Assembly (NCBI GenBank): GCA_028820845.1
Contig: JAPPII010000066.1
Location: forward strand, 1 to 42,646
Length of the DNA stretch: 42,646 nt
Source of the DNA: Candidatus Poribacteria bacterium
Lineage (GTDB): Bacteria; Poribacteria; WGA-4E; WGA-3G
Direction of reading: 5' to 3'
Part shown: piece by piece, positions 36,276 through 37,225 of the stretch
How positions within the stretch are numbered: position 1 is the stretch's first letter
Layout: each line of letters starts with the position of its first letter
Translations under genes and position numbers: made by a program
Notes under the pieces: model-generated
Told to the model about the DNA's origin: nothing
The model's database searches: none
What the model saw: the letters and a program-made list of their open reading frames with translations, nothing else

Positions 36276-36530
36276 CTAATAAACGCTGCTTCGATGGCCG
36301 ACTTCGAGAACAGTGATCTCTCTTGTTTGCCGATTGAAGGTATAGATTACTCGGTAATCATTGACACGTAAACTGAACTTTCCTCTATGTCGTCCTCGGA
36401 GAGCTCTGTGGCGATGTTTATCTCAGTTTTCGCATAATACTTTTAGCCTGTCAAGAATTTGCTGTTCAATCGTCGCATCTAAACGGGCAAAGTCACCTTC
36501 CGCTTTTGGCATAATTTCCAGACGATACAT
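36276..36530 (-). pseudogene. RelE/ParE-type toxin with in-frame TGA
   Basis: Read as 84 codons from the ATG at 36530, the frame gives MYRLEIMPKAEGDFARLD, then after a TGA at codon 36 (36423-36425) continues in the same frame as HRALRGRHRGKFSLRVNDYRV, IYTF and EVGHRSSVY to a TAG. This is the whole fold of a RelE/ParE mRNA interferase or gyrase toxin. Relatives have an aromatic residue where the TGA falls, consistent with TGG to TGA. The ATG overlaps the stop of the upstream gene (TAATG), so the pair is translationally coupled. It is either inactivated toxin or, less likely, read through. Confidence 0.8.
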
Positions 36531-37225
36531 TACCACTTCAGCCCTAATTCTTTTGCAACTCCCTTGATCGGGATTAATTCAGCGGTTCCTGCTTCAACCT
36601 CTGCAACGCTTCGCTCCAACCTTTCAGCTACCTCTGGGCGCAACTCCAACCCTTCATCGGGGTCATAGTCATAATCTTCAAGAAACTGTTCTAACTCCAG
36701 ATAATAGACGAAAAAATCAAGGAATTCTGATTTCAATTGTTCCGCTGCGGCAGCCGTTGGTGCCACCTTCTGCAACTTAACAATCCGCTCCCGTGCAGCA
36801 AAAAGTCCCCAATTCGCAAAGGTCTCCATCAACGCACGGAACCCCTCATCGGATAACGCCGATACCTGTATTTCTGGTTGCGGATCGGTGAGTAAAGGCT
36901 TGTCGCTCATCCGTCGCGCGATACGTCCTATAGGCGAGGTTTTGCGTGCGGCTTCCACAACTGCCACGCGTCGCTGTAGGGGAGCAAATCTATCAGAGGC
37001 ACGCAGTATTGAAAGCAGGTCTTCTTCACGTTCCTCTAACTCAAATGCCAGCCCGCAATAGCCTTCATAAAATTCACGGAACTCAGCTTCCAGTGCATCC
37101 CGATCCGCGTTCTCAGCAAGCAAAGACACAAGTCGTTCCCGCGCCTCAAAGAGCGCACGGTCTACCATTGGTGTCAGCCAAGTGCTAAATTGCGCGTGGC
37201 TCATACCTGTTATATCGTGTTTCAT
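36530..37225 (-). CDS. Two-domain antitoxin-like protein (duplicated helical unit)
   Basis: A 231-residue protein that I cannot assign to a named family. The sequence shows two related halves: ALFEARERLVSLL... through SPIGRIARRM and GLFAARERIVKLQ... through IPIKGVAKELG, about 95 residues each, suggesting an internal duplication. The C-terminus (ELRPEVAERLERSVAEVEAG through KELGLKW) resembles RelB-type antitoxin tails, and the next gene, overlapping by TAATG, is a RelE-like toxin, so an antitoxin role is inferred. A strong SD (AGAAGGAGA) precedes the ATG. recG ends 12 bp upstream. Confidence 0.6.
   Translation of the reverse strand: MKHDITGMSHAQFSTWLTPMVDRALFEARERLVSLLAENADRDALEAEFREFYEGYCGLAFELEEREEDLLSILRASDRFAPLQRRVAVVEAARKTSPIGRIARRMSDKPLLTDPQPEIQVSALSDEGFRALMETFANWGLFAARERIVKLQKVAPTAAAAEQLKSEFLDFFVYYLELEQFLEDYDYDPDEGLELRPEVAERLERSVAEVEAGTAELIPIKGVAKELGLKW

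Follow-up and report, generated by a model that had tools for sequence, protein, structure and literature searches.

The described proteins closest to the gene pair analysed here are the RelE/StbE toxins (TIGR02385, PF05016), among them the solved RelE of Thermus thermophilus (2khe), and the putative addiction module components with an Unstab_antitox domain (PF09720, TIGR02574). The toxin frame resembles the former in sequence and predicted fold; its upstream partner resembles the latter in its place directly upstream of a RelE-type toxin and probably in its C-terminal tail. A third likeness is to bacterial selenoproteins converted from Cys to Sec, in which TGA likewise falls on a conserved cysteine in a Sec-decoding genome (PMC1794560). 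In sponge symbionts, toxin-antitoxin systems are reported to be enriched, and most symbiont bins, from various phyla, to contain SelA and SelB (PMC5649159).

The window (the whole stretch of 42,646 nucleotides that was analysed) comes from a MAG of Candidatus Poribacteria, a sponge symbiont bacterium. On its minus strand lies a recG-like gene, followed just downstream by an antitoxin ORF and then by a RelE-like frame containing one in-frame TGA. Our analysis indicates that this toxin is, very probably, a RelE pseudogenised by one nonsense mutation, a case of ordinary gene decay in a toxin-antitoxin pair.

The toxin frame and its stop codon

The RelE-type frame (36276-36530, minus strand) is open on either side of a single TGA at codon 36 (36423-36425). 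Translated, it reads MYRLEIMPKAEGDFARLDATIEQQILDRLKVLCEN up to this TGA and DKHRHRALRGRHRGKFSLRVNDYRVIYTFNRQTREITVLEVGHRSSVY from there to the natural TAG. With X put at the stop position, the frame passes the curated sequence cut-offs of both RelE/StbE models: Pfam ParE_toxin PF05016 (4.8e-11, 43.5 bits, cut-off 23) and TIGR02385 RelE_StbE (3.4e-7, 30.7 bits, cut-off 27.9). A profile match to the PDB was obtained at 1.5e-11, and the AF2 model of an intact ortholog (L060) has a RelE fold that matches solved RelE structures (Foldseek E 2.9e-7, TM about 0.8). A sequence-only reading of this DNA had described the toxin as intact on both sides of codon 36 and coupled to the upstream gene by TAATG; both statements hold, the antitoxin TAA (36530-36532) and the toxin ATG overlapping by one base.

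If the TGA acts as a stop, codons 1-35 (36426-36530) are the sole translated part, and the remainder from codon 37 to the TAG (36276-36422), where the beta sheet and conserved basic residues lie, is left untranslated. In the structure model, residue 36 sits in the loop after helix 2 and the strands of the main beta sheet run from residue 52 on; judged by this model, a RelE fold would be impossible for the 35-amino-acid product. TGA terminates six of the 25 long genes in the window and is therefore a normal stop here, and a different genetic code is ruled out.

All orthologs in which a toxin was found have a Cys codon, TGC or TGT, at position 36. The sequence-only reading had looked to related genomes for TGG at this codon, but tryptophan occurs in just one paralog, in the same genome as the window, where the paralogs carry TGG, GGT or TGC. 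Since the orthologs have TGC or TGT, TGG was not the ancestral codon, and tryptophan is ruled out as the ancestral residue.

The records are MAGs, and the TGA might on that account be an artefact of sequencing or assembly, or an allele carried by a minority. An independent MAG of the same species (L056, the same record as G098) carries the identical TGA while differing from the window at 11 positions in 4741 bp; the stop is unlikely to be an error because this second, distinct MAG has it too, and we regard that explanation as largely refuted and scarcely credible. Beyond the stop the two sequences are identical, the MAGs being only 0.23% apart, and since each has TGA as its codon 36, neither encodes a full-length expressible toxin. 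The one-base change had been read as either inactivation or a population polymorphism: inactivation is the best-supported outcome, and no polymorphism was seen at the TGA in the two same-species MAGs compared.

Selenocysteine, leaky read-through and decay

Selenocysteine was tested explicitly because the TGA sits on a conserved Cys and the genome decodes Sec. Selenoproteins are classically recognised by a TGA that aligns with a conserved Cys, and the toxin UGA does align with Cys in its homologs. The window's own genome encodes SelB with an adjacent tRNA-Sec (C124), machinery for Sec was found throughout the genus sample, and the Poribacteria lineage of the window is, as its sequences indicate, a selenocysteine-decoding one. 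Under this alternative, codon 36 would be read as selenocysteine, giving CxxU for CxxC and a live, selenium-dependent pair; besides the conserved Cys, SelB and tRNA-Sec, it draws on two genuine UGA genes of the genome, selD and formate dehydrogenase. These two, selD and a molybdopterin-type formate-dehydrogenase-like gene (C123, L086 and L089), each contain one in-frame TGA with a qualifying SECIS stem after it.

The bacterial SECIS model comprises an apical loop of 3-9 nt with G in the first two positions, an upper stem of 4-16 bp, a spacing of 16-37 nt and an energy of -7.5 kcal/mol or less (PMC13188914). No qualifying bSECIS was found downstream of the toxin TGA, where no stem of at least 4 bp carries a loop of 3-9 nt, whereas the same scan returned two candidates for selD and four for fdh, one of the fdh candidates being a 7-bp stem with a GGUCU loop. 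The best looser hairpin after the toxin TGA, weak as it is, lies at the right distance, has G first in its loop and is stronger than those of the Cys orthologs, but its 14-nt loop, 3-bp upper stem and energy of -6.8 kcal/mol fall outside the published limits that selD and fdh pass. Only one of 60 shuffles produced a hairpin as good; random TGA sites in the window, however, equal it in 17% of cases, and the shuffle result is therefore uninformative.

Further points tell against selenocysteine. Despite genus-wide machinery, the related genomes searched contain no other family toxin, ortholog or paralog, with TGA as codon 36; residue 36 is predicted to lie in a loop, and we know of no redox function in RelE toxins; and constraint on the toxin is relaxed. 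Among the single-base changes that could create a stop in such a toxin, about 4-6% would by chance convert a Cys codon to TGA, and 2-3% would do so at codon 36; this is uncommon but too weak to carry the selenocysteine reading. With no qualifying SECIS after the toxin TGA and qualifying ones in the selD and fdh controls, we have mostly rejected it: that codon 36 is decoded as selenocysteine appears very unlikely, and a newly evolved Sec-containing RelE toxin in one Poribacteria species, with a non-canonical SECIS and selenium-dependent production, is similarly hard to credit. The sequence-only reading had itself placed read-through behind inactivation; in the form of selenocysteine insertion, read-through has largely failed the test.

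UGA is in general the leakiest stop. Leaky read-through by near-cognate decoding would leave a trace of full-length toxin and tune its dose, and the intactness of the remaining frame speaks for it; given the relaxed constraint, the private changes at invariant toxin sites and a TGA at codon 36 that is conserved in no other lineage, we think it highly improbable.

Other evidence supports decay. By a simple three-point estimate over 85 toxin codons, dN/dS of the toxin is about 0.23-0.33 on the window branch and 0.03-0.09 on its sister branches; for the antitoxin, the window branch gives 0.07-0.08. At sites that do not vary among the other orthologs, the window toxin carries six private replacements, where any relative has at most three, and four of the six fall after the stop, so that purifying selection beyond the UGA is not undiminished. 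The dN/dS values and private changes support decay, short of proof. Toxin loss recurs in the family: L057, the nearest sister species, has an intact antitoxin (87% identical) but keeps only about ten codons of the toxin, the rest being deleted; other toxins are broken by TGA at codon 22 (G030), TGA at Arg61 (G006) and TAG at codon 38 (G037); and the window's own genome has two paralogous antitoxins with no toxin behind them. Against a pseudogene stand the absence of further frame damage past the stop, the identity of the two MAGs over that part, the exact placement of the stop on a conserved Cys, and the decoding of UGA as selenocysteine elsewhere in the species.

We propose that this Poribacteria sponge symbiont originally had a RelE-class toxin-antitoxin pair of type II, and that the toxin was lost by a single nonsense mutation from Cys36 (TGC or TGT) to TGA. 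In intact relatives, family and fold suggest that the toxin acts as a RelE-type mRNA interferase and that the upstream protein neutralises it via an Unstab_antitox-like C-terminal tail. The window species would make only the 35-residue N-terminal peptide, which would lack the beta sheet, and hence no toxin. Its antitoxin is still kept under purifying selection after the loss. One possible reason is protection against paralogous toxins, since the genome has three intact pairs elsewhere; alternatively, the duplicated helical module may have another role.

The large antitoxin and its relatives

The antitoxin coding sequence (36533-37225, minus strand, 231 amino acids) is an intact ORF, unusually large for an antitoxin and made up of two similar halves, as had been noticed from the sequence. 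Repeat unit 1 (residues 1-118, 36872-37225) and repeat unit 2 with the tail (residues 119-231, 36533-36871) align with each other by hhalign at a probability of 94% (E 1.3e-7, score 45.7), the maximum score among 50 column-shuffled controls being 21.5. The AlphaFold2 model, confident at a mean pLDDT of 86, is all-helical: each half shows the same pattern of three helices (residues 10-21, 24-37 and 42-64; 126-137, 140-152 and 158-182), and two more are predicted in the tail (197-211 and 220-227). In the PDB, no Foldseek match had an E under 2, and Z from VIA-align 2 reached at most 5.2, a value usual for generic helical bundles; these results do not establish a new fold.

The putative Unstab_antitox-type tail spans approximately residues 182-223 (36557-36682). 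PF09720 was detected in 19 of 23 antitoxin homologs (best E 1.2e-5; residues 182-223 in L060), and the tail is likely to be the toxin-binding part. The antitoxin can be described as a tandemly duplicated helical module followed by a probable Unstab_antitox-type tail. Within the tail, the motif IPIEEVAKELG reads IPIKGVAKELG in the window and IPIKEVAKELG in the second MAG: the conserved EEV (window 36557-36565) is KGV in one and KEV in the other, so that Glu221 is missing from both MAGs and Glu222 from the window. This change suggests that drift after toxin loss has begun.

About 25 genomes of the genus have antitoxin orthologs, at 70-87% identity, and the position directly upstream of a RelE/ParE toxin was confirmed. 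Two outcomes would have refuted the sequence-only reading: relatives that all lack a toxin downstream of this protein, or halves that fail to align significantly. Neither was observed, as most orthologs keep the toxin directly behind and the halves do align. The window's own genome holds five more distant antitoxin copies. By profile search the large form is present in 49 of 85 phylum genomes, all from one Poribacteria family. No plasmid relatives were found, PADLOC returned nothing significant, and a limited literature search found no description of the large form.

Several side observations concern the relatives. One paralogous antitoxin without a toxin (L002, C124:135699-136373 of the same genome) lies directly upstream of a frame starting MHLPLKEYQERTLETLTEYYQ, which has a GGGKT motif (helicase/ATPase-like). 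Toxins at the same locus fall into two types (L008, L012-L014, L017, L020, L021 and L023 versus L009, L010 and L015), which differ in residues 1-32 (MYTLxFRARARSN and MYRLEIMPKAEAD) and closely resemble each other from residue 33 on. Because they differ over the first stretch yet nearly match thereafter, the pattern suggests recombination between paralogs. In two further loci (L098 in G037, L099 in G040) the whole antitoxin-toxin pair is present in adjacent tandem copies, and in L098 one of the toxins is apparently broken off.

Meaning and comparison with known systems

The large antitoxin is modestly new, joining a duplicated helical module to a putative neutralising tail of standard type and occurring in several copies per genome; within the phylum it is confined to one Poribacteria family, and selection acts on it even where the toxin is gone. 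Intact pair, stop-coded toxin and deleted toxin form a small natural series that bears on why antitoxins outlive toxins. The locus also cautions that, where a genome decodes Sec, searches for selenoproteins can be misled by a TGA lying on a conserved Cys. If the selenocysteine reading were nevertheless true, toxin production would be tied to selenium supply.

Set against Cys-to-Sec converted selenoproteins (PMC1794560), the window toxin has no qualifying SECIS, no known redox role and relaxed constraint. Compared with RelE/StbE toxins, it ends at codon 36, where its orthologs hold a conserved Cys. PF09720/TIGR02574 proteins differ from the window family in that the latter places about 180 residues of tandem helical module before the tail; the two homologs scored singly (L060 and L063) fell below the curated PF09720 cut-off, and the window copy itself has no Pfam match. 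Also close is a pair from a different Poribacteria family of the order (L093, G071), consisting of a small antitoxin and RelE, alike in its tail (DPDYGLELKPEVEEALR...IPVEEVAKELGLEW) and in the arrangement of its toxin, but with an antitoxin of about 70 amino acids that is without the repeated module. Because an antitoxin of that size with the same tail exists in another family, the module of the window antitoxin looks like either an addition to, or a loss from, the standard small-antitoxin design.
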